Source: a bacterium (GTDB lineage Bacteria > Patescibacteriota > Gracilibacteria > UBA4473). Taken from it: a stretch of DNA of 64,000 nucleotides. Position numbers and translations under genes: made by a program. The stretch spans positions 62,001-126,000 of the forward strand of contig JAACPJ010000003.1 in the NCBI GenBank assembly GCA_009995455.1, written 5' to 3'. A model generated the notes under the pieces. It was not told the origin of the DNA, searched no databases, and saw only the letters and a list, made by a program, of their open reading frames with translations. Shown piece after piece: positions 3,667 through 45,824 of the stretch. The stretch's first letter is position 1. Every line of letters begins with the position of its first letter.

Positions 3667-4956
3667 TTAGTGTTTCAAGAATTTAGAAACCGCTTTCACA
3701 ACCGCTTTAGCTTGGTCTAATGTAATTCCAATTTCAGCTAATTCTTCAGCTTTTAGGCCTTCGAACTGTTTGATTTGAGAAAGTCCCATTTCAGTTAGTG
3801 TGGCAATTACTTCAGGATCAACGCCTTCTAAATGGTCAATGGTTACTTTTTCAGAAACTTCCTTTTTCGGTTTCTCTTTATTAGGTTTAGCCGCCATATC
3901 TTCTTCTTCCATTGGTCCGTCGTAAGTAATCACATCGACTTGCATGTTGATTAAGTTTCCGGCTAAACGAACATTTTGTCCTCGTTTGCCAATGGTGATC
4001 GCTCGCTCTTCTTCTCGAACAAAAATTTTCACTCGGTTTTCTCCGTTATCGCCAACAAAGAATTCTACCTTGGCAATTTTAGCCGGAGCTAAAGCCGCGA
4101 TAAGCAGTTTTTTAGCGTCATCGTAAAACTGAATCACATCGAGTCTTTCGTCACCTACTTCTTCCATAACCGAATTAATTCTTGATCCTTTCTGACCAAC
4201 GAACGCTCCTACTGGGTCAATCCCACCATCTTCAGAAGCCACAGCGATTTTACATCGCACGCCCGCTTCACGAGCAATTTTAGCGACGTAAACAAGACCT
4301 TCTCGCATTTCTGGGATTTCTTGTTCGAACAAAGCAATGATAAATTCGTTGCTGGCACGAGTAATTCGTAGTTGTGGACCTTTTGATGTGAGTTCAACTT
4401 TTTCAAGTAGAACCTTGATTCGTTGTCCGGTAAAAAATTTCTCACCTGGAATTTGCTGTCTTCTATGTAACACGGTGGCGACGCCTTCAATTTCAATTAA
4501 GGTCGCGTCAAAATCAGCTTTTTGTACACGAGCGGTAATAAGTTCTCCTTCTCGGTTTTTGAATTTTTGGAAAAGCATTTCACGTTCCGCTTCATTAAGC
4601 TTTTGTGAAATTACTTGTTTCGCGGCTTGAGCGGCGATTCTTCCAAAGGCTTCTTGCATTTCAATTGGCACAAACACTACGTCTCCCACCGCAGCGTCTG
4701 GTCGAAAAATTTTGGCGTCTTTTAGCAAAATGTCCAAATCGTGATCTTCAATTTTTGGAACGACTTCCCGTTCTTCAAAGATTCTGATTTGAGTAATGTC
4801 ATCACCAAGTACTACTTTGATAGCTTGGCGCTGAGAACCAAAATCTTTTTTATAAGCCAGAGCGATGGCTTTTTCGATGGCATCGATAACAATGTCTTTA
4901 TCGAGGTTTTTTTCAGCGCAGAGCTGATTAATGGCCGCTTGAAGTTGACTTTGCAT
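3667..4956 (-). CDS. nusA: Transcription termination/antitermination factor NusA with C-terminal helix-hairpin-helix-like extension
   Basis: NusA N-terminal domain, S1 and KH motifs (GAFVGQKGSRINSVMEEVGDERLDVI; GKRGQNVRLAGNLI). Confidence 0.93.
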   Translation of the reverse strand: MQSQLQAAINQLCAEKNLDKDIVIDAIEKAIALAYKKDFGSQRQAIKVVLGDDITQIRIFEEREVVPKIEDHDLDILLKDAKIFRPDAAVGDVVFVPIEMQEAFGRIAAQAAKQVISQKLNEAEREMLFQKFKNREGELITARVQKADFDATLIEIEGVATVLHRRQQIPGEKFFTGQRIKVLLEKVELTSKGPQLRITRASNEFIIALFEQEIPEMREGLVYVAKIAREAGVRCKIAVASEDGGIDPVGAFVGQKGSRINSVMEEVGDERLDVIQFYDDAKKLLIAALAPAKIAKVEFFVGDNGENRVKIFVREEERAITIGKRGQNVRLAGNLINMQVDVITYDGPMEEEDMAAKPNKEKPKKEVSEKVTIDHLEGVDPEVIATLTEMGLSQIKQFEGLKAEELAEIGITLDQAKAVVKAVSKFLKH

Positions 4957-5130: not shown

Positions 5131-6393
5131 ATGAATTTAGATCGATTTAGAAACTGGTACGACTCGAGTTTTAGTCTTAAAGAGTTATATGAAAGTGAAC
5201 TTTTGAAAGCTGCCTTGGTGGCGGTTTTATTCGCTTATTTTTTAACCTTTAATATTTGGATTCAAGAGTTTCGTTTTACCATTGAGGCCGTAGAGCAGGG
5301 AAAACATTTATGTTGGCCGTACGCTAAAAATTGTGGCGACTGGTATTTTTTATCGGGCTTGCCATTTGGTTACACCGCTAATATTTTTTATATGGGGCTG
5401 TTTGGAATTATGGGCTGGAGTGCTTGGGCTATGTGGCGTGGGCAGTGGCGATTGGCGCATGGTTTAATGTGGCCGCTTTTTATTTGGAAGGCCTTGATGG
5501 TGTTACTGTTCTCTATGTCTCAAGTGGGTAATTATGAGTACTACCACTTGGTTTTTAGTCTGATTTTGCTCGCCTTTCCCCACAAAATTTTCTTTCTGAA
5601 ATTTAGCTTAGTTTGGTTTTATTTCTTGTCGGTCGCGGCAAAAATTCACCCCGCTTGGACACTAGGAACTTACTTTAGTACGCTTAAAACTGGGCTGCCG
5701 GTTTTGCCTGACATGGTAATGCCCGTTTGGACTAACTTTGTAATATTTATGGAAATGGTTGGGGCCTGGTTTTTGCTGGGACCAAAAAATTTATGGCAGC
5801 GTTTGGCGTTTATCTTTTTTGTGATATTTCATTTATATTCAGGACTGCTGGTGAGTTACCGCTATCCAGCCACGGTTTTGCCGATGCTGTTTATTTTGTT
5901 TGGGCCTTTATACCAGCAGACTAAGATTCCAACCGGTATAAAAACTTTGCCCGGTTGGTTACTAATGGCTTTGCTGGGTCTTGGGCAATCAATTTCTCAT
6001 ATCATTCCAGGAGACGAAAAATCAACTATGGAAGGAAATTTTTATGGGCTCTACATGTTTGAGGCCAATCATCAGTGTGTTGAACAAGCCACGATTTATC
6101 GAAAGGGGGATGATCCAGAGGTATTAAAAAAGGAAAGCTTTCAAGCCCGTAATCGTTGCGATGCTTATCGAGTTTGGTTTAAACACCAACAACAGTGCAA
6201 AAGCGATTCGACGATTGAGCGAATTGAAATTCAGTTTGATCACTCTATCAATGGAAATCCTTTTTATCGAACGATAGATATTCCTGATATTTGCGCGGTA
6301 GATTATAAACCTTTCAGTCGTAATGATTGGATCAAAACTGACAAAGAAGGAGCCGAGTTGATTGGTTATCCGATGCGAAATTATTACTATTAA
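5131..6393 (+). CDS. Multi-pass membrane protein, HTTM/gamma-carboxylase-TM-like
   Basis: Many hydrophobic segments; KIHPAWTLGTYF..NFVIFMEMVGAWFLL..FFVIFHLYSGLL resembles HTTM-type proteins. ATG at 5131; the track start 5128 is a TTG. Confidence 0.5.
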   Translation: MNLDRFRNWYDSSFSLKELYESELLKAALVAVLFAYFLTFNIWIQEFRFTIEAVEQGKHLCWPYAKNCGDWYFLSGLPFGYTANIFYMGLFGIMGWSAWAMWRGQWRLAHGLMWPLFIWKALMVLLFSMSQVGNYEYYHLVFSLILLAFPHKIFFLKFSLVWFYFLSVAAKIHPAWTLGTYFSTLKTGLPVLPDMVMPVWTNFVIFMEMVGAWFLLGPKNLWQRLAFIFFVIFHLYSGLLVSYRYPATVLPMLFILFGPLYQQTKIPTGIKTLPGWLLMALLGLGQSISHIIPGDEKSTMEGNFYGLYMFEANHQCVEQATIYRKGDDPEVLKKESFQARNRCDAYRVWFKHQQQCKSDSTIERIEIQFDHSINGNPFYRTIDIPDICAVDYKPFSRNDWIKTDKEGAELIGYPMRNYYY

Positions 6394-6405
6394 GTCTGTA
6401 AAAAA

Positions 6406-6597
6406 ATGATGCCAGAATCTATTATCGTTCCAAGCTTTGATCCGAATTACGATTTGGCTTATTTGACGCCCTTACAATTATTTTTAGCGCCTTATGAAGT
6501 TTGGTGGGAACTTTGTTTATGGACGGTGTTTGCCTTTGCGCTCGCCTTTAAAATTTACCAATATTTAATTTATCCTTATTTGTATGACACCGAGTAA
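6406..6597 (+). CDS. Small membrane protein (63 aa)
   Basis: Short ORF with one hydrophobic segment (LCLWTVFAFALAFKIYQYLI) between two co-oriented genes; overlaps the next start by 14 nt. Confidence 0.6.
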   Translation: MMPESIIVPSFDPNYDLAYLTPLQLFLAPYEVWWELCLWTVFAFALAFKIYQYLIYPYLYDTE

Positions 6598-8242
6598 AAG
6601 AGAAAAAGAACTTTTTAAAAGAATTGAGCAGGACGCTTTAATGAGAACAAATTTAAAAGCCGATGAGCCCATTATTTTACGGGCGACCCAAACAGGAAAG
6701 CTCCTTAATTGGTTATTTGATATTCGGGCGCTGGTAACTAAATCTGATGATTTGAACTTACTGGCTGAAGTTTTTTGGGACAAAATGGAGAAGCAATGGC
6801 CTTTTCAAGTGGGAGGATTAGAAGTGGGCGCTATTCCATTAGTGGCCGCTATTGTGATGAAAGGCCGAGAAAAAAACTACAATGTAAATAGTTTTATGGT
6901 TCGAAAATCGCGTAAAAAGGCGGGTCTTTGCAAACAAATTGAAGGGACGTTAACCAGTGAACCGGTGGTAGTAGTAGATGATTTAATAAACTCAGGGCAT
7001 TCGATGCGTCGGGTGGTAGCGGCCGTTGAACAAGAAGGTCAAAAAGTGGACACTATTTTTACTTACCTCGATTTTGAAAGAGAAAGCGCGCATGAATATA
7101 TGACCGCTGAGGGTATTAAGTATAGGAGCGTTTATAAACTTTCTGATTTTGGTTTAACCTATGGTAGTGATCAAAAGGAGCGTTTTTTCCCAGATGAAAA
7201 TACTTTAAAAGTAGAATGGGTTTATGAGCCACCGATGCCGAATTATGTTTTTAGTGTGCCTCATTCTGGGCCAGCTCAAGATGATGATAAAATTTATTAC
7301 GGGGCGGATAATGGTTATTTTTATGCCGTGGATAAGCGAACGGGGCAAAAAGTTTGGGAATTCCAAACAGGGGAGTCGATTAAGGGGATTTTCTCCAGTC
7401 CGGTTCTCACCGAGAAAGGGGTGATTTTTGGAGCCTATGACGGCAGTGTCTATCACCTTGATAGAAATGACGGAACCGTGATTTGGGAAGCGGCTGTGGC
7501 CGAATATGTAGGATCTTCACCTTGTCTTGCCCCAGAACTAAACCTGGTGTTTATTGGTCTGGAGCACAATATTTTTAATAATCGAGGGGCCTTAGTTGCT
7601 TTGAATTTAGAGACGGGTGAAAAAGAGTGGGAGCAATTTACCCAGGAGTATATGCACTCAACTCCGGCTTATTGTGCCGAAGAACGTTTGGTAACGGTCG
7701 GTTGCAATGACGGTAAGGTTTTACTGTTAGATGCAAAGTCAGGTCGTAAATATTGGGAATTTATCATGGAAGGGCCTTTAAAAGCCGCTCCAACTTTTGA
7801 TATGAAAAGAAGACAAATTATTGCGCCGGCTTTTGATAAAAACTGCTATGGCATTGATATAGATTCGGGTGAAGAGAACTTTAGATTTAGTGCTGGGCAC
7901 GTTTTTTATAACACGGCTTTAGTGGTGGAAGACAAGCTTTATGTCGGTAGCTGTGATAAAAATTTTTATATCTATGATTTAGCTAAAAATAAGTTGCTCA
8001 AAACCATGCCCACTACTGGGCGAATTTTATCGCATCCACGGTACATTAATAACAGCGTTTGGTTCGGAGCCAATGACGGCGGCGTACGTCAGATTGATTT
8101 TGAAGGGAACTATTTAGGCGGAGTTTTGTTACCGGAGCGTCCGGTTACGCCGGTTATTTATGACGAAAAAATAAACCGTTATTACGTAGTAACGATGGGA
8201 AATTTTTTAGTTTGCATGGAGCCAATTCCGGTTGAAGCTTAG
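6584..8242 (+). CDS. Phosphoribosyltransferase domain fused to PQQ-like beta-propeller repeats
   Basis: PRPP-binding loop VVVVDDLINSGHSM, then repeated propeller blades (KIYYGADNGYFYAVDKRTGQKVWEFQTG; GVIFGAYDGSVYHLDRNDGTVIWEA; LVTVGCNDGKVLLLDAKSGRKYWEF). No signal peptide. Confidence 0.8.
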   Translation: MTPSKREKELFKRIEQDALMRTNLKADEPIILRATQTGKLLNWLFDIRALVTKSDDLNLLAEVFWDKMEKQWPFQVGGLEVGAIPLVAAIVMKGREKNYNVNSFMVRKSRKKAGLCKQIEGTLTSEPVVVVDDLINSGHSMRRVVAAVEQEGQKVDTIFTYLDFERESAHEYMTAEGIKYRSVYKLSDFGLTYGSDQKERFFPDENTLKVEWVYEPPMPNYVFSVPHSGPAQDDDKIYYGADNGYFYAVDKRTGQKVWEFQTGESIKGIFSSPVLTEKGVIFGAYDGSVYHLDRNDGTVIWEAAVAEYVGSSPCLAPELNLVFIGLEHNIFNNRGALVALNLETGEKEWEQFTQEYMHSTPAYCAEERLVTVGCNDGKVLLLDAKSGRKYWEFIMEGPLKAAPTFDMKRRQIIAPAFDKNCYGIDIDSGEENFRFSAGHVFYNTALVVEDKLYVGSCDKNFYIYDLAKNKLLKTMPTTGRILSHPRYINNSVWFGANDGGVRQIDFEGNYLGGVLLPERPVTPVIYDEKINRYYVVTMGNFLVCMEPIPVEA

Positions 8243-8637
8243 TTTAAAAATAGATACTGCCACTTCTTCCAGTTGGCTTCTTCTTTGATTTTTCGCACTT
8301 CTTCTCGGGCGGCTTCAGTCGGTAAAATTTCAAGCTTTTCTTCGACTAAAACAATTACTTGTTCGCCAGGCAGCTTTTTACCCATCTGCATTTTCGCTTC
8401 TTTCTCTAAGCGTTCTGGAGTTTTTAAATAAGCCAGAAGTTGTTTCTTTTCTTCGATTTCGTTTTTTAGTTTTTGGTTGGTGGCGTGAATTTCTTCAATT
8501 TCGGTTTGAACCTTTCGTGACTCATGCAAAAAACTTGCGATTGAATAAAGCAGCCAGAACAGGAAAAAAAAGAGCCCTACCATGGTGATAACACTGCGCG
8601 GAGAATAGATTTCTGAATTACTACCACGGTTGTTCAT
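8239..8637 (-). CDS. Septum formation initiator FtsB/DivIC-like protein
   Basis: Single TM followed by coiled coil (SFLHESRKVQTEIEEIHATNQKLKNEIEEKKQLLAYLKTPERLEKEAK). Start at the ATG ending at 8637 (MNNRGSN), preceded by a -10-like TATCAT. Confidence 0.7.
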   Translation of the reverse strand: MNNRGSNSEIYSPRSVITMVGLFFFLFWLLYSIASFLHESRKVQTEIEEIHATNQKLKNEIEEKKQLLAYLKTPERLEKEAKMQMGKKLPGEQVIVLVEEKLEILPTEAAREEVRKIKEEANWKKWQYLFLN

Positions 8638-8712
8638 AGTTCGATGATAATCAATTTTAAGGTAACGCAAAGACTTCCCATTTTATGACGTTCTTTAACG
8701 TAGGGGATACAG

Positions 8713-8747: not shown

Positions 8748-9287
8748 ATGAGACTGATTGTAGGCCTTGGTAATTTTCCAGAAAAGTACGCGCTGACCCG
8801 TCATAATTTTGGTTTTTTAGCCTTGGAGGCCTTGTCTAAAAAATACAATTTTACGCCTTTTAAACTGGAGTCTAAGTTTAAAGCTCAACTAAGTTATGGG
8901 GAAATAAAGGGGGAAAAAACCATTCTTTGTAAACCGCAAACCTTAATGAATTTAAGCGGTGAAGCCGTGGGCCCGATTATGAAGTTTTATAAAATACCCT
9001 TGGAAAGCTTAGTGGTTTTAACCGATGATTTAGATCAAGATTTTGGCGCGACTCGATTGCGGGTTAAAGGCTCAGATGGTGGGCAAAGAGGGTTGCGACA
9101 TATTACCAAAGTGCTTGGTAGTGCCGAATATTTACGCCTTAAATTTGGTATTAAAAACGAGTTTAGAGCGCGCTTCAATGCAGCGGACTTTGTGCTTGGT
9201 AAGTTTACAGCGGAAGAACAAGCGGCTTTAGGAGCGGTGATAGCCGAAGGATTAGAGAAGCTAATAAGGTTTGACAGATTTTCTTGA
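8748..9287 (+). CDS. pth: Peptidyl-tRNA hydrolase
   Basis: VGLGNFPEKYALTRHNFGF, CKPQTLMNLSGEAV, DDLDQDFGATRLRVKGSDGGQRGLRHI motifs. Confidence 0.95.
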   Translation: MRLIVGLGNFPEKYALTRHNFGFLALEALSKKYNFTPFKLESKFKAQLSYGEIKGEKTILCKPQTLMNLSGEAVGPIMKFYKIPLESLVVLTDDLDQDFGATRLRVKGSDGGQRGLRHITKVLGSAEYLRLKFGIKNEFRARFNAADFVLGKFTAEEQAALGAVIAEGLEKLIRFDRFS

Positions 9288-10642: not shown

Positions 10643-13438
10643 TTAAGCCTCGGTTGGGACTGTCGGGGGTAAATTATCTAAATTTAAAAGTTCTCTAAAA
10701 CCACGGTTATTTCCAGCGGCTGCTGCTTCCAATATTTCATTGAATTGATTTCTCACGCTTAAAGCTCGACTGCCATCAGCGGTGTTATCCCATTTAAGGG
10801 CATTTAGTTGCGCCAAGATGGTGTGCAAGTTGATATGATTATCGCTCATCATTTCACCCAAGCTTTTAAACTTATCGAGTTCGCTTTCGGGTAAGGTATT
10901 ATTGCCCCGAATACCCCAGTATTGTTTCATAAAATTCACTAAGGCTCGATTTCCTAAAGTTTCTCCGGCTTGGGCAAGTTCGGCCGCACTTTTTACCACA
11001 AAACCATCGGTCATAGCGCCCAAAGCTTGGGCTGTGGCCCATTCGCTGGCGGGCACGCGTAGGTCTTCGCTATCGGGTACGCCAAGTAGGTGTTCGGCGA
11101 TGATAGTGCCATCACTTGAGTTTTGAATGAAGCGTGTTTGGTCGGTTCCACTGGATTCAATGATGTAATCTCCTTCGGGCGTTAAACCTACCATATTGGT
11201 GCCACTAGGCATGGTGTTTAGGTTTTGGAAGCTTTGTGCTTGCTCTCTAGGGGGAGATGTTTGAAAACTTGGATCCGATTTGACATGTAAGGCGTAAAGA
11301 ATGTCGTCGGGTGCTTCTCCGTTTTGAACTCGCTCAGTTACATACTGAAAGTCCTCAGTTGTAAATTCTGGCATTTCACCGTTGTGAGTGACTCGATATT
11401 CTTGAATATACTGCGTCGCAATATCAACTGTTTCATGGAAGGTCTGTCCTTCTTCTGTGCTCGGTTCTAACACTTCTTCTGCCTGAGCAATAGACTCTTG
11501 ATAAACTCTTTCTTCCGCTTGGGCCTCTTCTCTTATTTCTTCTCCTTCTGCAATATTACCTAGTGAATTTTGTAGTGATGGAATCTCAATCACCAGAAAA
11601 TCGAGTAATCTTTGCTCGTCTTCAGATAGAGAATCATCGTTTACGAGTCTCATTTCTAGTCCCTGCTTAACTTGTTGAGCTTGCACAATTAATTGATTTA
11701 ATTGTTCAGGAGTCATGCTCTGAGGGTCTATACCTTCTACCATGGCTGGGTTGATGGCTCCAAGGGCCTCAATTACACCGGCTACATACATTTGGTTTTT
11801 AAAGACGATTACGGCTCCTTCTAAATCATTAATTCCAGGTTGGCGGCTAAGGGTATTAAGTCGCGCTAAGAGAATTTGTTTTAATTGTGGGTTTTGTTCC
11901 AGTAAAAGCGCTCCGTCTTCATCAGAGCTTCCTAAAATTCTGGCAATAAGAATTCCAAGCTGTTGATTAAATGACTCTGAATTAAAGCTGCCATCACGAG
12001 CCATTTGTTCAAGCGAACTATCGAATTCTTCTAACCATCGTGATAATTCTTCTGGTGATAAGTTTTCAAACTCCGCCAGAATGAGTTGTGTATTAGCGGC
12101 AATAAGAGCCTCATTTTCTGCTTTTAATTCCTCTACATGAATATCAATCGCTTGTAAAAGATCAGGAAGACTGCCTTTGAGTTGTTTTAAAGACGCAATC
12201 ATTAGAGCGCTGGTTTCTGGGTTTGATTCCGCGGCAATAGCCGTTTCGTATTTTTGTACTTCAGCTTCTGCGTATTCTACGATTTTTTGGATGGCTAATA
12301 AAATGCCATCTCTAAAATCTGCCGGATTACTTAAGGCGTCTAAGCCTGGAACGCTTTCAAAACCAGGAATGTTGAAGGACTCTCCCACACTTAGATCATT
12401 ATAATTTTCGCGACGAGTGTTCGCATCAAGAAAAGTTCTAAATGAGCCTCCTTCTACAAACAATGTTTTTATCTCGGTTATGAAAGGTAAATCATTGGCT
12501 AGTAAACTTCCATTAATCGAATCAGAAAAATTCTTCCAGGCTTGAGCGGTATAAAAATTTGTATTTCGATTTTGTTCTAAACGAGCCATTTCATCACTGT
12601 TTTCTATGTTTGAAAAAACGGGATTTTCTGCTTTTAATTGGGTCAAGATGGCGCTATCAGTATCGAGTAAATCTGCATCACCAAAAGTAGTAAAATTAGT
12701 GTCAGAACCAATTCTGGCTCGGTTTCCCACAATTCCATCGGGGCTAAATCCTAGATAACCGTGGGGCGTTCTAACATATAACTCGTTATTGATTTGTAGG
12801 TATTGCTGGTTCGGGTCTATAGGAGACAGAAGATCCATGAAGTTTGCTTGCCGCGCTAAATCAGTGTCACCATAAAAATTGGCACGGTAACTGATTCGAC
12901 TTCCTTCTGTTGCGAGTGTATCGGTAAATAAATTTCTGGCATCATCCCGATAGTCGAGAAGAAACCTCGTTTTTGCACTGGGTGCTAACAAATCTAAAAT
13001 AGCCCCTTCGTATGAAAAATCGGTTCCTCTTTGCAAGGCCTGAGCTAAGTCGGTGCTAATAATATTATCGGCCACAGAACCAATGCTATCACGAATCCAC
13101 TGCAAGTTGGTTCGATCATCCCCTGAGCCGTCTAGACTGTCAGATTGGAAATCGTTACGTGCAATTCGAACTAAAAGTAAAACTTGTTCATCAATGGGAA
13201 GGTCTGAGGGTAATGTTTCTTGATTTTCAATTTGGGCCTGAAGATCGGCTAAAGCCATTTCAGTATCAAGGATAGCTGTCTCTCGGGCACTGCTACTGAG
13301 GGTTTCTGCTTCAGGCGTTAAAGCGGGGGCTTCGGTTTCATCTGGGCTCGAAGCGCTGCTGGCAGACGCTCCCATTACAAAAACAAACCGCCCAATTGGG
13401 GCTGTTAAATTTTTGTCTGAGGCGTACCAAAACTTCAT
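10643..13438 (-). CDS. Large protein of unknown function (931 aa)
   Basis: Long uninterrupted ORF, no recognised domain, acidic/Gln-rich, no classical signal peptide. Confidence 0.75.
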   Translation of the reverse strand: MKFWYASDKNLTAPIGRFVFVMGASASSASSPDETEAPALTPEAETLSSSARETAILDTEMALADLQAQIENQETLPSDLPIDEQVLLLVRIARNDFQSDSLDGSGDDRTNLQWIRDSIGSVADNIISTDLAQALQRGTDFSYEGAILDLLAPSAKTRFLLDYRDDARNLFTDTLATEGSRISYRANFYGDTDLARQANFMDLLSPIDPNQQYLQINNELYVRTPHGYLGFSPDGIVGNRARIGSDTNFTTFGDADLLDTDSAILTQLKAENPVFSNIENSDEMARLEQNRNTNFYTAQAWKNFSDSINGSLLANDLPFITEIKTLFVEGGSFRTFLDANTRRENYNDLSVGESFNIPGFESVPGLDALSNPADFRDGILLAIQKIVEYAEAEVQKYETAIAAESNPETSALMIASLKQLKGSLPDLLQAIDIHVEELKAENEALIAANTQLILAEFENLSPEELSRWLEEFDSSLEQMARDGSFNSESFNQQLGILIARILGSSDEDGALLLEQNPQLKQILLARLNTLSRQPGINDLEGAVIVFKNQMYVAGVIEALGAINPAMVEGIDPQSMTPEQLNQLIVQAQQVKQGLEMRLVNDDSLSEDEQRLLDFLVIEIPSLQNSLGNIAEGEEIREEAQAEERVYQESIAQAEEVLEPSTEEGQTFHETVDIATQYIQEYRVTHNGEMPEFTTEDFQYVTERVQNGEAPDDILYALHVKSDPSFQTSPPREQAQSFQNLNTMPSGTNMVGLTPEGDYIIESSGTDQTRFIQNSSDGTIIAEHLLGVPDSEDLRVPASEWATAQALGAMTDGFVVKSAAELAQAGETLGNRALVNFMKQYWGIRGNNTLPESELDKFKSLGEMMSDNHINLHTILAQLNALKWDNTADGSRALSVRNQFNEILEAAAAGNNRGFRELLNLDNLPPTVPTEA

Positions 13439-13510: not shown

Positions 13511-14587
13511 CTAATTTAGTCGAATTATAAAGGCAGCATCAGGATCAATTGATGGTTGCTGTATGGGACTTCCAATAGTGGGGTCTGGCGTTTGCTCATC
13601 AACTATATTTACTTCTGTTTTTGCAAGGGGTGGATCGGCGGTATTGATTTCACTTTGTATGGCATTAACCTCACTCGTTCGTGAGACATACATTGGCGTT
13701 CCGTTTTGTGCGCTTTCATTAATATTTCTCTTAATGTGTTTGAGTAAAAGATAGGTAATATCTCCATCAGCTAAACGATAACATCCAGCGCTGGCCGCGA
13801 GATTGCTTTGTAATTCACCTCGGTCATTAAAACCAACATTTGTGCCATGGAGCGCTACTCCACGTTGCGCTAAACGATGGTCGGCTCGCCGGTCAGAAAT
13901 TGAGGCGCGGCCGGTGGTTATCGTGGCATGTCGGTTAACATTATTTACGATATCACCATTGGAATAATAACGCGTATCGTTGTGTAAAAGCGCTTCTCCA
14001 ATCCGTCCTTCCATGATGGAAGAAATCCACATTTCTCCATAGGGCGAGCCTCCAGAATTGATTTCATTGCTAAAACCATGTCTAGAAACGGTTACATCCA
14101 TTTGAATTGTGGCCTGAAGCGTGCCATTTTGCTTTTTAACCACGTACAAATGTCGGTTTTGGCCGTCAATAAAAAGTCCTACTTGGCCTTCTTCTAAGTG
14201 GCCTAAAAGGTTTTGTTTTGCTTCTGAAAAATTCTCTAGAATTTCTGTGTTTTCAGGGCGTCGCATTGTCGCATTAACGCGATTTAAAACTTGTTCAAAT
14301 TGCGCTGGGCTACGGGGCGGGGTTTGGTCATTTCTTTCCGCTTGCCGATAGTAGGCGACTACGTCTTCTAAATCGGCTCTAAATTCTGGGTTTGTTTGAG
14401 CATGTGATTCTAGTTGAGAGCCGTAGGGGAGTTCTCTGAGTGCTTCTGACACAGCCGCTTGAATCTCGGCAGGTGTTTGAGCAATTGTTGATTTAGGCGT
14501 TAATGTACAGGCTAATAATCCAAATATAATCTCACGTCTTGTAATCTTATTACTTACTTCTGGATTTTTTTTGTGGTCTAAACTCAT
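13511..14587 (-). CDS. L,D-transpeptidase (YkuD)-like protein with twin-arginine-like N-terminus
   Basis: VALHGTN...SAGCYRLADGDI matches the HGT..S.GC.R L,D-transpeptidase catalytic pattern; N-terminal TRREIIFGLLAC. Confidence 0.75.
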   Translation of the reverse strand: MSLDHKKNPEVSNKITRREIIFGLLACTLTPKSTIAQTPAEIQAAVSEALRELPYGSQLESHAQTNPEFRADLEDVVAYYRQAERNDQTPPRSPAQFEQVLNRVNATMRRPENTEILENFSEAKQNLLGHLEEGQVGLFIDGQNRHLYVVKKQNGTLQATIQMDVTVSRHGFSNEINSGGSPYGEMWISSIMEGRIGEALLHNDTRYYSNGDIVNNVNRHATITTGRASISDRRADHRLAQRGVALHGTNVGFNDRGELQSNLAASAGCYRLADGDITYLLLKHIKRNINESAQNGTPMYVSRTSEVNAIQSEINTADPPLAKTEVNIVDEQTPDPTIGSPIQQPSIDPDAAFIIRLN

Positions 14588-15672: not shown

Positions 15673-18009
15673 ATGAAATTTTTACACCAATCGGCTACGG
15701 AAGCTTTTACAGACGGTAATTCTGTAGGGCGATTTATTAATTTTGCTCAAGGCGATAGACCTCGACATATTTCAGAAGCAGACCCAGATGCAGCAGAAGT
15801 TGCGCAGCTTGACGCTTTAAAACTAGGGGTAATTGGAGAAGCACGTGAAGAGGAGCGATCTCATTTATTACAGACTACTATTGATGCGGCGATTGACCGT
15901 GTTTCAGGTGATATTAACGCAATTCGACGTTTTAATGGTTTCGAGGTAGGTGAAGATGGGGCTATTTCGGTTATTATTTACAGAAGTATTGGTGGTACAG
16001 AAAGAAACAGACTTTTATTTAGTGCCGATGATATAGTGGATTCAGGTTTTACAACTGATGAACTTTTAAATGCTTTAAACTATGCAGCTCCGAGATTTGC
16101 CGAAACGGGAGCTTTTGCTGCAGATGTTGATCCTGGCGCAGCTCGCATTGTTGATATGCGTACAGCAGACCCAGATGCAGCAAGTTTGGATGATCCAATT
16201 AGACCTGTAATAATTCCAGAGGATCCAAACGCAGCCGCTGTAATACCATTAGAAGTTCCGATTGATACTGCCCCAGGCAACTTTGCTTCAGACCTAAATA
16301 TTGAAGAATTTAACACCAATTTAGAAGCCGAAGATAAACTAGAAGACGTACAATTTGATGCTTTAACTAATAGCTATGTAGTCGTCTTTGAAAATGGAGA
16401 TCGAGTGACGATTCCAGGTGCAGGGATTGGAAGCACACTTGATTTAATTGACGCTTTGAGAGAAGAGCTTGGAGTAGAGGCTCCTGTAGAGAAAGCACCT
16501 GAAGGCGCACAATTAGATATGAATGCTGAAGCGGCGCAAGAGGCTATTAAAAGTTTAGAAGGTTTAACAGGCGCTGACTTACAAACACGAATTAACGAAC
16601 TTGCGACTCAATTAGGAATCACTTTCCCAGAAGGTCGTTACGTTGAAAATGGACTTTTAAAAGTTGATGGTTCAATTGGAGGAACGACTCGAAATGCTTT
16701 AAATCAAGTGATCGAAGTATTACAGGGAAGAATTCCATTACAAGCGGAAGTTTATGGTCGAGTTTTAGATGATATTGAAGGTGAAATTACAGCTCAATCA
16801 ATTGAAACGGCCATTAAAGCCGATCCTGAAGCACGCGTATTAACATGTCAGTTACAAGTAGATTTAGGTCTGCTTAAAAGAGAAGATGGTACCCCTTATT
16901 ACACCGCTGGTGTTGATGGCGCTTGGGGCGCTGGAACCCGTGGTGGTTTAACCGCGGCTTTGGAAGCTTACGGAAGCTTGACGGCCATTCGCCGAGCGGC
17001 CCGAATTGCAGAAGTAGAACAAGAAGCAGAAATTAATGATGGTGATGGAAGAACTAACAGAGGTTTAGATTTAGTCGCGCAAGGCGCTGACTATGTACCA
17101 GGTTCACTTGAAGAATTTTTGGCGGAATACAAAGTAACGGCTGATATGCCAGCAGATATTGCGGCTGATCCAGAACGAGCTCGTGAATGGATTATTGGTC
17201 AAGCCATTGCCATGGGAGACCGTGAAAATGCGAGTCAAACTCGACTGACTTTTATTGATGGTTTATCACAATACGGAAATGATAATATTCGAGACGTAAT
17301 GCGAGAGTTACGACGTAATTTTGAAACTAACACTGGCCGAACTGAGTTAGCCGAAGCCATGGGGGACGGTGTAGCCGTTACACAAGCTGATTTTATGGAG
17401 CCAGTAATTGATCTGGGCGGACGAAGAATTGATACTTCGCTTCTCGACACCGCTTATATTGCCACCGGTTCTGATGTCACACGTGACATTGATGGTTCGC
17501 AACAACGAGGAACAATGGAAGTGCCAATTTGGCTTCCAGATGGTTCAATTAATCCAAAATTTGCCGAACTTGAGTTCACAAACGCAACTTACATTAATGG
17601 AGCGATTGTCATGACCATGGGGAATGGTTGTGAAGGGAACTTAGTCATTATTCCGGTACAACGTGAGAAATACACACCACCACCAGTAGTGCCAGTTCAG
17701 CCACGACAGCCACGTGAGCCAAGAGAACCACGAGACCCTCGAACTCCACGTGACCCAGAACCAACGCCAACACCTGAAGGCCCAACTCGACGATGTCGAA
17801 CGGAGAAAGATTGTCAGGGAGGTAGAATTCGAACTCGACAAATTTGTTGGGACGAAGGATCTTGGGGCTTTGGTAACACCACTACTCGGTCACCTTGGAT
17901 GCAAACGACTGAATCTTGTAATAACGGAGGAGACGGTGACGGATGTAGTGGTTGTGGCGCGGGTTCTGGAGGTGATGATAGTGAAGGCACAGGTGGTAAC
18001 GGTTTATAA
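15673..18009 (+). CDS. Large protein with PG-binding-like motifs and Pro/Arg linker (778 aa)
   Basis: CQLQVDLGLL..YTAGVDGAWGAGTRGGLTAAL and LKVDGSIGGTTRNALNQ resemble PG_binding_1 repeats; linker QPRQPREPREPRDPRTPRDPEPTPTP; Cys/Gly-rich C-terminus. Confidence 0.65.
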   Translation: MKFLHQSATEAFTDGNSVGRFINFAQGDRPRHISEADPDAAEVAQLDALKLGVIGEAREEERSHLLQTTIDAAIDRVSGDINAIRRFNGFEVGEDGAISVIIYRSIGGTERNRLLFSADDIVDSGFTTDELLNALNYAAPRFAETGAFAADVDPGAARIVDMRTADPDAASLDDPIRPVIIPEDPNAAAVIPLEVPIDTAPGNFASDLNIEEFNTNLEAEDKLEDVQFDALTNSYVVVFENGDRVTIPGAGIGSTLDLIDALREELGVEAPVEKAPEGAQLDMNAEAAQEAIKSLEGLTGADLQTRINELATQLGITFPEGRYVENGLLKVDGSIGGTTRNALNQVIEVLQGRIPLQAEVYGRVLDDIEGEITAQSIETAIKADPEARVLTCQLQVDLGLLKREDGTPYYTAGVDGAWGAGTRGGLTAALEAYGSLTAIRRAARIAEVEQEAEINDGDGRTNRGLDLVAQGADYVPGSLEEFLAEYKVTADMPADIAADPERAREWIIGQAIAMGDRENASQTRLTFIDGLSQYGNDNIRDVMRELRRNFETNTGRTELAEAMGDGVAVTQADFMEPVIDLGGRRIDTSLLDTAYIATGSDVTRDIDGSQQRGTMEVPIWLPDGSINPKFAELEFTNATYINGAIVMTMGNGCEGNLVIIPVQREKYTPPPVVPVQPRQPREPREPRDPRTPRDPEPTPTPEGPTRRCRTEKDCQGGRIRTRQICWDEGSWGFGNTTTRSPWMQTTESCNNGGDGDGCSGCGAGSGGDDSEGTGGNGL

Positions 18010-18303: not shown

Positions 18304-21300
18304 ATGAAAATGTTTAAAAATTCGGTCATGAGATACGTCTCAAAACAAATGATAACCAGCTTAATGCTGTCACTGTTTGTTGGAGGTCTTTTTGTAGCTC
18401 AAGTTGAAGCTGGTACGTACTCAGCTGGGCAAGTTTTTAACCATAGACATTGGATTAAGAACAACAACTCTTGTACTATCTACATTACGAGTATTACCAA
18501 ATCTTGGACTAGTACTGGGAATGTAATTCAAAGAGTTGATAATCGTTCAGGAGATACGGTTACAGATTCATCAACGAATCAAAGCGGTTCATTTTCCTAT
18601 CCAGTAAATAACTATGCTTTAGCTCCTGGAGCTGAAGTAAGTGCTTATTTAGATTTTTACACTCGAAGCAGTACAAGTGGTTCTGTAACCACCAATGTTA
18701 CCTTTCAATATACCAGTAATTGTGGACCGTGTCAGGTTAGTGCGAGTCATACATCGACCATTACGAATCCAGATCCAACGGTTTGTACTCAGTCATCGTT
18801 CGCAAAAAATAGTGCAAATCCGGGTGAGAGTGTGAATTTTACTTGGAATATTAATAATCCTAACGGACAAGTAAGACTCACTTGTGGCGGGGCTGGTCAA
18901 CCAGGAATATTCGATGCGAATGTGCCAAATTCTGGGACTCGATCAATTACCGTTCCGGCAAATGCCGATTCAACAGACGTTATTAGTTGTAGCCTTAGAA
19001 TTGGGACGACTAATCTGTGTGGAGATAATTTAACGGTTAACGGAACACCAGATATTCAAATTATCAAAACCGATCAAAACTCGGCTGATCAAGACGGGGT
19101 TCAACAAAATGATAGCCAAACTATTAACAGTGGTGGGAATGCGGTATTTAAAATTACTGTGCGTAATAACGGAAGTGAACCCTTAAAAAATGTCGTAATT
19201 TCTGACACAGAATCACCCGCTTGTAATCGAACAGCGGCTCAAACTCAAAGTTTATATTCTGGTTCAACTTTCGCTCCAGGCGCACAGTTTAGTTATAACT
19301 GTACCGCTACAGGCGTAACGCCAGCTAGTTTTGTTGATGGCGATAATGATATCTCGGTTACGGGTAAAGGTAATGTATCGAATCAAACCGTAAACGATGC
19401 AGATCCTTCGGTAGTTCTTTTCAAAAACATTCCACCAGCGAATGTTCAAATTTTGAAATGGGCTAATAACCCAAATGATAAAGACGGAAAACCAACGGGT
19501 AATAATTCAACTAATGATTCACAAGCGATTAATTCTAATGCGAACGCGATTTTTAGAATTCAAGTAAAAAACACCGCCAATGTGGCTTTGCAAAATGTAC
19601 GTGTTAACGATGAAAATGCGAACGAGTGTGCTTTAACGGCCGCTCAAGTAAATCAAATTTTGACGGCTGGAACCAGTCCAAAAAGTTCGGTTACTAATGT
19701 GGTAAAACTTAGTGGAACGAATAATAATAATATTTTAGAACCGAACGAAGGGTTTGAATATGATTGTACTCAGCCTAATGTTTTAGATAGTTACACCAAT
19801 ACAGCGGTGGTAATTGGTGACCCGGTTAATGGTGATCCATCTGTTTCGGATGACGATCCAAGTGAGGTGGTGATTTGTAATTTAGAAGATTGTGTTACGC
19901 CTCCAGTTACGCCAAGTATTAACATTGTTAAAACGGATGTGAATACAAACGATCAAGATGACGTTCAAAGAAATGACACGCAAACGATTGACCCAGGTCA
20001 ACAAGCGGTGTTTGAAATCAAGGTTACTAATAACGGGAAAGAAGCGTTAAGAAATGTGGTGGTGACAGATCCTGAATCACCTTCATGTAATCGAAGCGCG
20101 ACTCAAACCCAAGCTTTGTACCCAGGTCTAATTTTTGATCGAGGTGAAAGCTTTATTTACACTTGTTCACGAGCGAATGTTTCTGAAACCACTTTCGTAG
20201 ATGGTGATAATGATTCTTTTGTAACCGGTATTGGAGTTAAATCTGGCACAACGGTAAACGATGAAGATCCATCGGTAGTAGTGCTAACAGAAGACGCTCC
20301 AATTTGTGGAAATGGAATCGTGGAAGCGCCAGAACAATGTGATTTAGGTTCTCAAAACGGACAACCTGGTAGTGCTTGTTCTGCGACATGTACCACAAAT
20401 CCGGTGGCTACTTGTACCGGAGCCGATTTTAATCCAGACGCGGTACTCGCGGGGAACACTTCAGTGTTCAACTGGACGACGATTAATATTGCAAACAACT
20501 TGAACCTTAAATGTTCTGGTTCATCGGGTTTTAATTTAGACGTTTCAGTACCAGCTAATGGTTCACGCAATATTACCGTGCCAAGCAGCGCGGCTTTGGG
20601 AACCGACACAAACTGTGAACTTTTCAATAACGGAAATAAACTTACTTGTGAAGACACGCTTCACACCAGAAATTCAATTTGTGGTGATGGAATGGTTGAA
20701 ACTGGTGAAATGTGTGACGATGGTAATACGAACAATGGTGATGGTTGTTCAAACACTTGTCAGCTAGAACCCGCTTGTGTGGGGACGCCATTCTTTGCGC
20801 CAAACCCAACCACGCCAAACAGTAAATCAGTCTTTAGTTGGGATACGGCTAACACGGGCGTTGATGTAACGCTGAACTGTAGTGGTTCTGCGATTACTAA
20901 CTTCACTAAAACCGTGCCTTCAAATGGAACGGAAGAAATTAATGTTCCAATTACAGCGACTAATGGTTCGCAAGCGACTTGTCGACTAGTTGAAAATGGA
21001 ACCAATGTTCCAAGTTGTGCCGCTACCTTAGACGTTGATACCGGTATTGGCCCATTCTGTGGAGACGGACTGGTTAACCAACCAAGTGAACAGTGTGATG
21101 ATGGTAATACTAATAACACCGATAGTTGTTCAAACACGTGTCAAAATGTGTTACCTCCTTACGCGATTGACGTGCTTAAATGGGCGGCGAATCCAAATGA
21201 TAAAGATGGAACGACAACGGGAAACAATAACACGAATGATACGCAAACGGTTGAATCGGTGGCGACGAATAATCTTGATAACGCGGTTTTCCGTATTCAA

Positions 21301-24282
21301 GTCACCAATGTCGGGCAAAACGCTTTGAAAAACGTAAAAGTGAATGACGCTAATGCCGCGGCTTGTGCATTAACTCCGACTCAAGTTCGAGAAATTCTAA
21401 ACACGGGAACTTCTTCTAAATCTACGGTACGAAACGTGGTGATTCAAACAGAAGTGATTAAGGATGATCTACTTCAACCAACCGAACGATTCCGATACGA
21501 TTGTCTTCAAGCGGGAACTCGTGATGGTTACACCAATACGGCGGTTGCCGTTGGGACTCCCGTTAATAATAGTGCGGATGTAAATGATTCTGATCCTTCA
21601 CAAGTACTCGTTTGTAACGGATCAAATTGTCCGCCAACGGGAGATCAACCAAAAATTAAAATAGTTAAAACGGATGAAAACACGACTGATTTTGACACCG
21701 TTCAAGGAAATGACACGCAATTAATTGCGACTAACACTGCGGCTGGATTTAAAATCACCGTAACAAATAATGGAGCTGAACCACTGAAAGAAGTGGTAGT
21801 AACCGACGAAGAATCACCGGCTTGTGCTAGAACAGCCAGCCAAACTCAAGCGCTTTACCCAGGTTCAGTGTTTGATGTCGGAGAAAGTTTTTCTTACCTT
21901 TGTGAAAAAGCGAATGCGAATCCAGGTGATTTTGACGGAGCGAATGGTCAAGGTTCAGTGGATGGCAAAAATGATGCTCGTGTAGATGCAAAAAGCACGG
22001 TTGATAATCAGCCAGTGAATGATGAAGATCCTTCAGAAGTTCTGTTTATTACTCAATGTACAGTAGCTCAAGGTCAAATTACGATTACCAAAGACGACTC
22101 TACGCCTGGTCAACCAGACACAGACGGAGATGACACGCAAACGATTGCTAACGGTGGTACGGCTACGTTCACTATTTCTGTGGCAAATCCTGGTACTTCT
22201 TCAATCTCTGAAGTAAGTGTGACTGATACCTTAAGTCCAAGTTGTGCTCGATCTCAATCTGAATTTATGACACTGCTTGGCAATGTGGGCAACAACAATA
22301 ATACGCTCGATCCGGGCGAAGTAATCACTTACACTTGTACCCAAACCAACGTAACGGCTAGCTTTACTAACACGGCGTCGGTATCTGGTAAAGTTGCAGC
22401 GATTCCATGTATTGTCAGTGATGATGACACTTCAGCGGTGGTAGTTACGGGTGGTCCAGGAGGTTTCTGTGGAAACGGAGTAGTAGAAGCGCCAGAGCAA
22501 TGTGACGATGGAAACAGCATAGATAACGATAGTTGTAGCAATACTTGTACTTTGCCTCCAACTTGTGCAAACCCACCTTGTGGCGGAGGGACTCCAATTG
22601 ACCCATCGGTTGGAACTTGTGCCTTTAATACCTCTACGGGAGCCGCCTTGTGTTCTCCGAAGAAGCCGGTTGAAGATGTATCAGACCCACTATGGCAAGC
22701 TTACCGATTGTGTAGAGATGGAATTAACTCACCGCGTCACCCAATTACGGGAACTATTGCAGAAGCATGTGCTCTAGATTGGGCAGAAGATCAAGGTTTA
22801 CTCCTTTGTGGTCCTAAAGTTGGTGGAACTATTGATCCATTCCAACCACTAGCGGGTACTTTCAATCAAGCTGAAATTAATGCGCAATGTGACCCAACGT
22901 TTCCACCAGTGCCTTGTACACCAGTAAATACGCCTTGTCCTGAGTGTTTCAAAGCTGGGAACAGTATTGTGAAACAAGTTCGTCCAGGCGATTTGTCTCA
23001 ACCTCTTGGCACATCGGCCACTGTGGCTAAAGGCGAAAACGCTAAATACGAAGTAACGGTAAAAGTAGATGGTTTTGACACTTCTAAATTCCAAATTATC
23101 GACGCTCAAATCCGAGTTTACGACCAAACGATTCCAACTGAATCAGGAAATATTTTCAACCGTAAAGGAATCGAAGATGGTGACGGAAACAACACTTGGT
23201 TATGGTGTGATGAAAATGTTCTTTGTCCAGAATTTGGAGAATACTTCTACCTAGACTTAAGAAACAATATTAGCCGAAACTTTGTAAATGAGATTAACGC
23301 GGTTGGTGAAACTGAACTTAAAGTTCACTACGATATGGATACAGCGGTGGCTTCAACTAAAGATACGGCCAACATCAAAAACGTGGCTTACGCTATGATC
23401 TACTACACTTACATTAACACCGTTGATTCAACGACTGGAAATAGTATTGCCGGGTTTGGTAACAATATCTGTCAACCAACTCCGCCAACTAAAGTAAGCC
23501 AATTAGCGCAAGGAACGTATGGTTCTGTGGCCAATGTAGAAATTATTCGACCATTCATTAAAGCGAAAGCGGGGAATGCGGGTTACTATGGTGGAGGAAG
23601 TACTGATAAAGCGTTTGCCGATCAAAACAATATTTTATCGCCAACCGATCCAAACCAAAATTACGGGTTAACGTTAACTGATGACACCACGGTTTACACC
23701 GGGGCTGAACAAGGTGACGCGGATGACTTCGCGGAATTCCAAGATCAAAAAGATGATTTCTACGATAATCTTGATGCCGCCACTAATGGAACGGTTACCA
23801 TTGGAGGTCAAACCTTCAGCCGAGTGGGAGACTCTGAAGTTTACCAGTTCGCTGGTACAACCTTAGATGTGAGTGCCGTGAAAGATATTTCAAAAAGTGC
23901 GACGTTTATTCTTACTAACGGAAATCTAACCGTTAATAATAACTTTGCTTTCACTAACGCTGGCGTATTCGCGGCTTTCATTGTTCGAAACGGAGATCTA
24001 TTGATCAACAAAGACGTTCAAACGATGCAAGGTATGTACCTGGTTGAACAAGGGGAAATTAAATCTTCACCAGAGCCAGATGTTTCAATGGCTCAGCTAA
24101 AAGTATCGGGTAATCTATTTGGAGACCTAGGTCACTTGCTCGCTTACAGAAGATACATCGGTAGTGGTACAAACATTGAACCAAGTATCGAAATCAATTT
24201 CGATCTAAGACTGCTTAACAACACGCCACCAATGCTCGAACAATTCCTTGGGGAAGGTTGGAGACAAGAAATCCAAGACTAA
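18304..24282 (+). CDS. Giant secreted surface protein with DUF11-like repeats and Myxo-type Cys-rich repeats (1992 aa)
   Basis: Signal peptide (MITSLMLSLFVGGLFVAQVEA); repeated I.I.KTD.N..D.D.VQ.NDTQTI blocks; CGNGIVEAPEQCDDGN....DSCSNTC repeats. Confidence 0.85.
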   Translation: MKMFKNSVMRYVSKQMITSLMLSLFVGGLFVAQVEAGTYSAGQVFNHRHWIKNNNSCTIYITSITKSWTSTGNVIQRVDNRSGDTVTDSSTNQSGSFSYPVNNYALAPGAEVSAYLDFYTRSSTSGSVTTNVTFQYTSNCGPCQVSASHTSTITNPDPTVCTQSSFAKNSANPGESVNFTWNINNPNGQVRLTCGGAGQPGIFDANVPNSGTRSITVPANADSTDVISCSLRIGTTNLCGDNLTVNGTPDIQIIKTDQNSADQDGVQQNDSQTINSGGNAVFKITVRNNGSEPLKNVVISDTESPACNRTAAQTQSLYSGSTFAPGAQFSYNCTATGVTPASFVDGDNDISVTGKGNVSNQTVNDADPSVVLFKNIPPANVQILKWANNPNDKDGKPTGNNSTNDSQAINSNANAIFRIQVKNTANVALQNVRVNDENANECALTAAQVNQILTAGTSPKSSVTNVVKLSGTNNNNILEPNEGFEYDCTQPNVLDSYTNTAVVIGDPVNGDPSVSDDDPSEVVICNLEDCVTPPVTPSINIVKTDVNTNDQDDVQRNDTQTIDPGQQAVFEIKVTNNGKEALRNVVVTDPESPSCNRSATQTQALYPGLIFDRGESFIYTCSRANVSETTFVDGDNDSFVTGIGVKSGTTVNDEDPSVVVLTEDAPICGNGIVEAPEQCDLGSQNGQPGSACSATCTTNPVATCTGADFNPDAVLAGNTSVFNWTTINIANNLNLKCSGSSGFNLDVSVPANGSRNITVPSSAALGTDTNCELFNNGNKLTCEDTLHTRNSICGDGMVETGEMCDDGNTNNGDGCSNTCQLEPACVGTPFFAPNPTTPNSKSVFSWDTANTGVDVTLNCSGSAITNFTKTVPSNGTEEINVPITATNGSQATCRLVENGTNVPSCAATLDVDTGIGPFCGDGLVNQPSEQCDDGNTNNTDSCSNTCQNVLPPYAIDVLKWAANPNDKDGTTTGNNNTNDTQTVESVATNNLDNAVFRIQVTNVGQNALKNVKVNDANAAACALTPTQVREILNTGTSSKSTVRNVVIQTEVIKDDLLQPTERFRYDCLQAGTRDGYTNTAVAVGTPVNNSADVNDSDPSQVLVCNGSNCPPTGDQPKIKIVKTDENTTDFDTVQGNDTQLIATNTAAGFKITVTNNGAEPLKEVVVTDEESPACARTASQTQALYPGSVFDVGESFSYLCEKANANPGDFDGANGQGSVDGKNDARVDAKSTVDNQPVNDEDPSEVLFITQCTVAQGQITITKDDSTPGQPDTDGDDTQTIANGGTATFTISVANPGTSSISEVSVTDTLSPSCARSQSEFMTLLGNVGNNNNTLDPGEVITYTCTQTNVTASFTNTASVSGKVAAIPCIVSDDDTSAVVVTGGPGGFCGNGVVEAPEQCDDGNSIDNDSCSNTCTLPPTCANPPCGGGTPIDPSVGTCAFNTSTGAALCSPKKPVEDVSDPLWQAYRLCRDGINSPRHPITGTIAEACALDWAEDQGLLLCGPKVGGTIDPFQPLAGTFNQAEINAQCDPTFPPVPCTPVNTPCPECFKAGNSIVKQVRPGDLSQPLGTSATVAKGENAKYEVTVKVDGFDTSKFQIIDAQIRVYDQTIPTESGNIFNRKGIEDGDGNNTWLWCDENVLCPEFGEYFYLDLRNNISRNFVNEINAVGETELKVHYDMDTAVASTKDTANIKNVAYAMIYYTYINTVDSTTGNSIAGFGNNICQPTPPTKVSQLAQGTYGSVANVEIIRPFIKAKAGNAGYYGGGSTDKAFADQNNILSPTDPNQNYGLTLTDDTTVYTGAEQGDADDFAEFQDQKDDFYDNLDAATNGTVTIGGQTFSRVGDSEVYQFAGTTLDVSAVKDISKSATFILTNGNLTVNNNFAFTNAGVFAAFIVRNGDLLINKDVQTMQGMYLVEQGEIKSSPEPDVSMAQLKVSGNLFGDLGHLLAYRRYIGSGTNIEPSIEINFDLRLLNNTPPMLEQFLGEGWRQEIQD

Positions 24283-27432: not shown

Positions 27433-27474
27433 CCGATTTTTAGATCGTGTTTGTCGAGAAGGCAGCGTTTGTAT

Positions 27475-28113
27475 ATGCTTGGGCAGATGAAAAATATTGC
27501 CCAGCTTTTAGTCGAACAAAACGTCGTACAAACAAATTTTGAGAATCCTTTCACTTGGACCTCTGGTATTAAATCACCCGTTTATTGTGATTGTCGTGAG
27601 CTGATTAGTATTCCCGAAGCTAGAGATATTATTGTGGAGGCTTTTCTAGAATTAATGGAGCGAGAAAATTTAAAGTGCGATTATATTGCCGGTCCGGCTA
27701 CAGCCGGAATTCCTTGGGCAGCGATTATTGCTGATCGGCTAAAAATTCCCATGCTCTATGTTCGTTCAAAACCAAAAGGGCACGGGGCTGGTAAAATGGT
27801 CGAAGGAAAAGTTTTTACTCAGAACCCAAACATTGTGGTGGTTGAAGATGCTTTTTCAACGGGAGGTTCTTCGATTAAATCTGCCGAAGCCCTTCGGACA
27901 GAAGTCGGGGCAATGGTGACGCATATTATGGGAATTTTTTCTTGGAGTACGCCCCAATCAATCACGAATGCGGAAGAAGCGGATATTACTTTGGCGCCGC
28001 TGACTGAATTTCACGCGATTGTGAAAGCACTAATCGATTCTGGAAAAATTGATCAAACGCAAAAAGAAAGTTTAGAGCGTTTTCACGACAATCCTTCGCA
28101 GTGGGGTGTTTAA
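27475..28113 (+). CDS. pyrE: Orotate phosphoribosyltransferase
   Basis: FTWTSGIKSPVYCDCRELIS, GPATAGIPWAAIIADRL, VRSKPKGHGAGKMVEG, IVVVEDAFSTGGSS motifs. Confidence 0.92.
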   Translation: MLGQMKNIAQLLVEQNVVQTNFENPFTWTSGIKSPVYCDCRELISIPEARDIIVEAFLELMERENLKCDYIAGPATAGIPWAAIIADRLKIPMLYVRSKPKGHGAGKMVEGKVFTQNPNIVVVEDAFSTGGSSIKSAEALRTEVGAMVTHIMGIFSWSTPQSITNAEEADITLAPLTEFHAIVKALIDSGKIDQTQKESLERFHDNPSQWGV

Positions 28114-45704: not shown

Positions 45705-45824
45705 CTTTTTTAATATTTTAAAGCCTTAATATTGAATATTATTCTGTTTTTTTGACCTATTTTTTTATTATTCATGAATTCCATTTATCTGGTACACTTG
45801 GCGTCGAAGTATTTTTACCTATAT

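Follow-up and report, generated by a model that had tools for sequence, protein, structure and literature searches.

What might a protein that joins a phosphoribosyltransferase (PRTase) domain to a PQQ-type propeller do beside a membrane protein and a 63-aa protein in a bacterial genome of 1.32 Mb? The locus lies in a stretch of 64,000 nucleotides (the window) of contig JAACPJ010000003.1, from a bacterium whose relatives have been deposited as Candidatus Gracilibacteria. An earlier note on this DNA had pointed to three co-directional genes, the last two overlapping by 14 nt, and all were found as placed (Table 1), with an overlap of exactly 14 nt (6584-6597) between genes 2 and 3 and a gap of 12 nt between the stop of gene 1 and gene 2. 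The trio is conserved in 3 of the 3 genomes of the genus examined (G000, G001 and G002), and all of them, hence three species, share the 14-nt overlap. Across these species, all three frames are under purifying selection, with pN/pS values of 0.16-0.25 for genes 1 and 3 and 0.28-0.40 for gene 2, so that the 63-aa gene can be taken as real. The set proposed by the earlier note as undescribed and built around an unusual PRPP-binding/propeller fusion is selected, co-directional and conserved in the genus. The gene 1 homologue in G001 (L003:49-1319) is split by an apparent frameshift, possibly an assembly error.

Table 1. Features of the locus and its surroundings (positions in the window)
Feature	Position	Strand	Description
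nusA-like gene	3667-4956	-	flanking gene; name from reading the translation
Gene 1	5131-6393	+	420-aa polytopic membrane protein, family without a name; ATG start
Cys pair C61/C68 of gene 1 (HLCWPYAKNCGDWYF)	5311-5334	+	invariant in four distant homologues
K171/H173/W176 motif of gene 1 (AAKIHPAW)	5641-5658	+	invariant; resembles HTTM KLNADW without statistical support
Gene 2	6406-6597	+	63-aa protein, one hydrophobic segment; ATG start
Gene 3	6584-8242	+	PRTase-propeller fusion, 552 aa; ATG start
PRTase domain, residues 1-206	6584-7201	+	TIGR00336 E=7.2e-21, below cut-off; best structure matches are OPRTases
Catalytic-loop RKSRKK (R107-K112)	6902-6919	+	His of OPRTases replaced
PRPP-binding loop VVVVDDLINSGHSM	6965-7006	+	Asp pair in 12/12 fusion family members (alignment)
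Eight-bladed PQQ/BamB-type propeller, residues 208-547	7205-8224	+	Pfam, AlphaFold, Foldseek
Septum-initiator (ftsB)-like gene	8239-8670	-	other flank; name from reading the translation
pth	8748-9287	-	follows the ftsB-like gene; name from reading the translation
Canonical PyrE	27451-28113	+	separate gene, above family cut-off

The N-terminal domain of the fusion is derived from orotate phosphoribosyltransferase (OPRTase). Its PRPP loop, which the earlier note had placed at about 6958-7011, is indeed intact (Table 1). With PyrE (TIGR00336; PDB 5hkf and 2p1z) the domain shares the PRTase fold, the PRPP loop with its Asp pair and the RKxxK loop, the last being present in 11 of the 12 family members, with G415 gapped at this position. 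It differs from PyrE in the positions that we take to be the substrate motif and the catalytic loop of OPRTases: TSGxKSPxY is replaced in 12/12 fusions, with an invariant Trp found there instead; the catalytic-loop His is kept in G037 only. Moreover, the fusion carries the propeller and, at 74.7 or 78 bits, does not reach the curated TIGR00336 cut-off of 106.8 bits. As the window contains a separate canonical PyrE above this cut-off, and most of the fusion-carrying genomes likewise have one, identity with the housekeeping OPRTase was rejected. The missing orotate-binding Arg was discarded as an argument, as this residue is also missing from two canonical PyrEs of the class. A full-length copy of the fusion in G029, with a divergent propeller and PRPP loop, forms a long branch in the tree.

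Several PQQ-type blades had been ascribed to the rest of the protein; the propeller type holds (Pfam PF13570, E=1.8e-43; PF13360, E=8e-23), but the count has to be raised to what is modelled as a complete eight-bladed ring. The AlphaFold model of the fusion (mean pLDDT 81.6) comprises the PRTase fold and the propeller, the strands of which fit eight blades at residues 208-547, as read from the strand list of the model, and Foldseek matched the model to the designed eight-bladed Cake8 (TM 0.93, target-normalised) and to eight-bladed BamB (TM about 0.76-0.83). A signal peptide was sought at the N-terminus and none was found; the sole hydrophobic stretch (residues 74-92) maps to a strand/helix in the core of the PRTase fold, in agreement with the earlier description of the protein as lacking an export signal. 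PQQ-type propellers are, as a fair generalisation, usually exported, and to this extent a cytoplasmic one attached to an enzyme is odd, as had been remarked. However, the best Pfam model for the propeller, Beta-prop_ACSF4, is named after a propeller that is joined to an adenylating enzyme, and enzyme-propeller fusions therefore have a precedent. The fold and the blade repeats are common to the fusion and to BamB/PQQ-type propellers (PF13360, PF13570), whereas the fusion has neither a signal nor a lipoprotein anchor and its propeller is part of a soluble enzyme fusion. A role as the BamB outer-membrane assembly factor was rejected, given a score of 87 bits, far below the equivalog cut-off of 285, and no export signal.

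The fusion was identified by profile search in 12 of the 353 genomes of the class, distributed over five families. A profile is needed because the more distant fusions escape single-sequence searches: a phylum-wide search of the latter kind returned nothing besides the window itself. A scan of the genome collection with narrow automatic patterns recovered only two members of the genus and G037. In the tree, the genus, G389/G390, G393/G394 and the members of family f14 form groups, whereas family f146 is split, so that retention or transfer of the fusion would seem to have been patchy. In the other families of the class, these genes contain in-frame TGA, read here as Gly. Viral contigs and phage records yielded no fusion, and a phage origin was rejected, the huge-phage match LR756511 being a stand-alone PyrE-like protein. 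No place recovered in the plasmid search covers 80% of the fusion, the matches being mainly to the propeller. Anti-phage defence was likewise discarded: the PADLOC PRTase_III-A match is weak and partial (18 bits, E=4e-4), and genes 1 and 2 match none of the PADLOC defence models. A literature search returned no description of a PRTase-propeller fusion, which is weak evidence of novelty, as most subscription papers lay outside the search.

The full trio is confined to one genus, and elsewhere the fusion occurs with other partners, mostly without gene 1. The neighbourhood conservation expected by the earlier note thus holds, but only narrowly, and the trio is not a general unit; the neighbours vary, and the acidic PRPP-loop residues are kept in all homologues. 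Outside the genus, the fusion stands beside radical SAM/Hxs genes in G037, G029 (on contig C41), G393, G415, G435 and G451. Four radical SAM genes precede it in G037, the last one of the B12 type and overlapping the fusion by 4 nt, and a hydrolase and then a secreted protein with a Hint domain follow. The latter (L023:11700-12470) is peptide-like, its Hint/intein-type domain lying between Asp/Cys-rich tails. On contig C41 of G029, three radical SAM genes come after the fusion, the last of them of the B12 type, and in G393 a B12 radical SAM gene and HxsB lie downstream. Radical SAM genes flank the fusion of G451 on both sides, and HxsB, HxsD and an HxsA-like peptide are encoded upstream; the arrangement in G435 and G415 is similar, with HxsA3-like peptides and, in G415, also an HxsC-like protein. 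G394 is split over contigs, the ends of which fit the gene order of G393, so that it is probably linked to radical SAM/Hxs genes as well. One query recovered the B12-type radical SAM relatives in the fusion-linked genomes, and the peptides adjoining the fusion give matches to NCBIfam HxsA3/HxsA4 that stay below the cut-off. The neighbourhood is different in G389 and G390, where the fusion adjoins genes for a thioredoxin-like and a rhodanese-like protein as well as secreted peptides that have Gly-rich tails; in G390 an Hxs cluster lies roughly 12-20 kb away. PMC9062424 credits the His-Xaa-Ser idea to Haft and Basu.

This recurrent linkage suggests that the fusion may help in modifying or exporting cell-surface peptides. 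The fusion is, however, at most an optional accessory of Hxs systems, because most genomes with HxsB (56/353, versus 12/353 for the fusion) lack it. In contrast to several other families, in which the fusion lies in or beside His-Xaa-Ser clusters (HxsA/B/C/D), none of HxsA-D is found beside the trio of the window's genus. HxsB is absent from G000, G001 and G002, a search for HxsC gave nothing in G000 and G001 and no more than a weak fragment match in G002, and no B12 radical SAM protein was detected in the genus beyond MiaB-type matches, the three radical SAM matches of G000 being, from reading their sequences, MiaB, Elp3 and the PFL activator. A peptide role at this locus is therefore transferred by homology from the linkage in relatives. 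A pattern scan of the window ORFs revealed no HxsA-type repeat peptide, and the trio has no known precursor-like peptide at its side. A candidate lead, 7.4 kb from the trio, is a 778-aa protein (15673-18009, +) without a Pfam match, whose Gly/Asp/Cys-rich C-terminus (GGDGDGCSGCGAGSGGDDSEGTGGNGL) resembles the tail of the secreted peptide next to the G389 fusion; these two have the sole such tails in 2446 ORFs scanned. The window further encodes a 931-aa protein without a convincing family (10643-13438, -), adjoining an L,D-transpeptidase-like protein (13511-14587, -), and two proteins of 1992 and 1582 aa (18304-24282, + and 45774-50522, +) read as repeat-rich surface proteins.

The membrane protein encoded by gene 1 has several hydrophobic segments and no Pfam or NCBIfam match. 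Its identity is 80% to the G002 protein, 46% to an Agrobacterium plasmid protein and 41% to the G390 protein. Gene 1 is present in 4 of the 353 genomes of the class (three of the genus, and G390) and adjoins the fusion in all 4; with the genus counted as one lineage, 2 of 2 carriers of gene 1 have the fusion, a chance of about 7e-4 for presence alone. The pairing of gene 1 and the fusion thus recurs in a second, distant family, in support of the earlier proposal that they belong together, although the association spans only two lineages and the two genes converge in G390. G389, a sister of G390, keeps the surrounding block without gene 1. On Agrobacterium tumefaciens plasmid pAtG3_79b (L050:9830-11146), the gene 1 homologue, 46-48% identical, belongs to a cluster that includes an NRPS; a DCC1-like oxidoreductase is encoded three genes downstream of it, and the stretch of this cluster that was read contains no annotated fusion. 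In G390, the homologue is extended at its C-terminus by a part with hydrophobic segments, and this part is similar to the 63-aa protein (shuffle P 0.06, 0.001 and 0.011 in the comparisons with the three species), so that gene 2 is plausibly a split-off C-terminal segment of a gene-1-type protein.

The reading that we favour, with a probability of roughly 0.4, is that the fusion serves as a cytoplasmic, PRPP-using accessory of a peptide-modification or export pathway, one that has lost its radical SAM partners in the window's genus. The PRTase domain would bind PRPP and probably move phosphoribose to some acceptor that is not orotate; this could be a residue within a secreted peptide or else an intermediate from partner enzymes. 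The eight-bladed propeller would act as a docking platform for the peptide or for partner proteins. Radical SAM enzymes of His-Xaa-Ser type clusters would be the partners in most other lineages; in the window's genus, where those enzymes are absent, the fusion would be translated together with genes 1 and 2, and the membrane protein and the 63-aa membrane segment, possibly in a physical complex with it, would carry the product to or across the membrane. The earlier suggestion of a nucleotide-linked membrane modification or sensing module survives in its 'modification' part, through the radical SAM/His-Xaa-Ser clusters around the fusion elsewhere, but loses its carboxylase component and the trio as a general unit. 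A more specific version, in which the fusion phosphoribosylates a residue of a secreted peptide and the B12-type radical SAM enzyme remodels the ribose in most lineages, with the membrane partner standing in for it in the window's genus, we regard as quite unlikely. We know of no phosphoribosylation of ribosomal peptides, and the chemistry of radical SAM peptide systems includes, to our knowledge, no ribosyl transfer.

The main rival to this accessory role, if a somewhat unlikely one, casts the PRTase domain as a non-catalytic PRPP sensor that gates the contact between propeller and partner according to PRPP or nucleotide supply. Regulators of the PRTase fold exist (PurR or GfcR-type), and retention of the PRPP loop together with loss of the substrate motif and, in nearly all members, of the catalytic His is what such a sensor might look like, as is a weak similarity to GfcR-type regulators, which stand among many PRTases in the matches. 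Yet the RKxxK lysines persist in 11/12 members, G037 keeps the His too, and Pfam and the AlphaFold model reveal no DNA-binding domain in the fusion. It is very unlikely that the protein is instead a nucleobase-salvage enzyme or an OPRTase paralogue, merely stabilised by its propeller and functionally unrelated to its neighbours: clear as the OPRTase ancestry is, the canonical PyrE of the window and of most fusion genomes, the replacement of TSGxKSPxY throughout the family and the repeated linkage to peptide-maturation genes all speak against this.

Two further alternatives turn on gene 1. The earlier note had likened it to HTTM/gamma-carboxylase proteins, and as a remote enzyme of this type it would make the trio a quinone-coupled protein-modification module at the membrane, which we consider unlikely. 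A Lys motif and then an FH motif in a polytopic membrane protein would recall HTTM/gamma-glutamyl carboxylases (PF05090), and hhalign placed the K171..W176 and FH motifs in register with one HTTM protein; the invariant Cys residues and the DCC1-like or thioredoxin/rhodanese genes near the Agrobacterium and G390 homologues would fit as well. However, the likeness comes without a significant sequence or profile match. The hhalign score of 21.0 falls inside the spread of the shuffled controls (up to 23-30), and comparison with a five-member HTTM alignment missed the motif. HTTM membership is unsupported by Pfam, NCBIfam, a PDB profile search, a PF05090 search of the three genus genomes, which gave no match, and hhalign with reversed and shuffled controls, and the AlphaFold model of gene 1 (pLDDT 46) is too poor for structure matching. 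Finally, genes 1 and 2 might adjoin the fusion by chance or hitch-hiking, without a joint function, as could be argued from the closer similarity of gene 1 to the Agrobacterium plasmid protein than to that of G390, from the block in G389 and from the restriction of the full trio to one genus. This is very improbable in view of the renewed adjacency of gene 1 and the fusion in a distant family, the overlap kept over three species and purifying selection on all three genes.

If the link of the fusion to peptide maturation holds, a PRPP-using component would be added to radical SAM peptide systems, and the locus would offer a handle on the surface make-up of very small, probably host-dependent bacteria.
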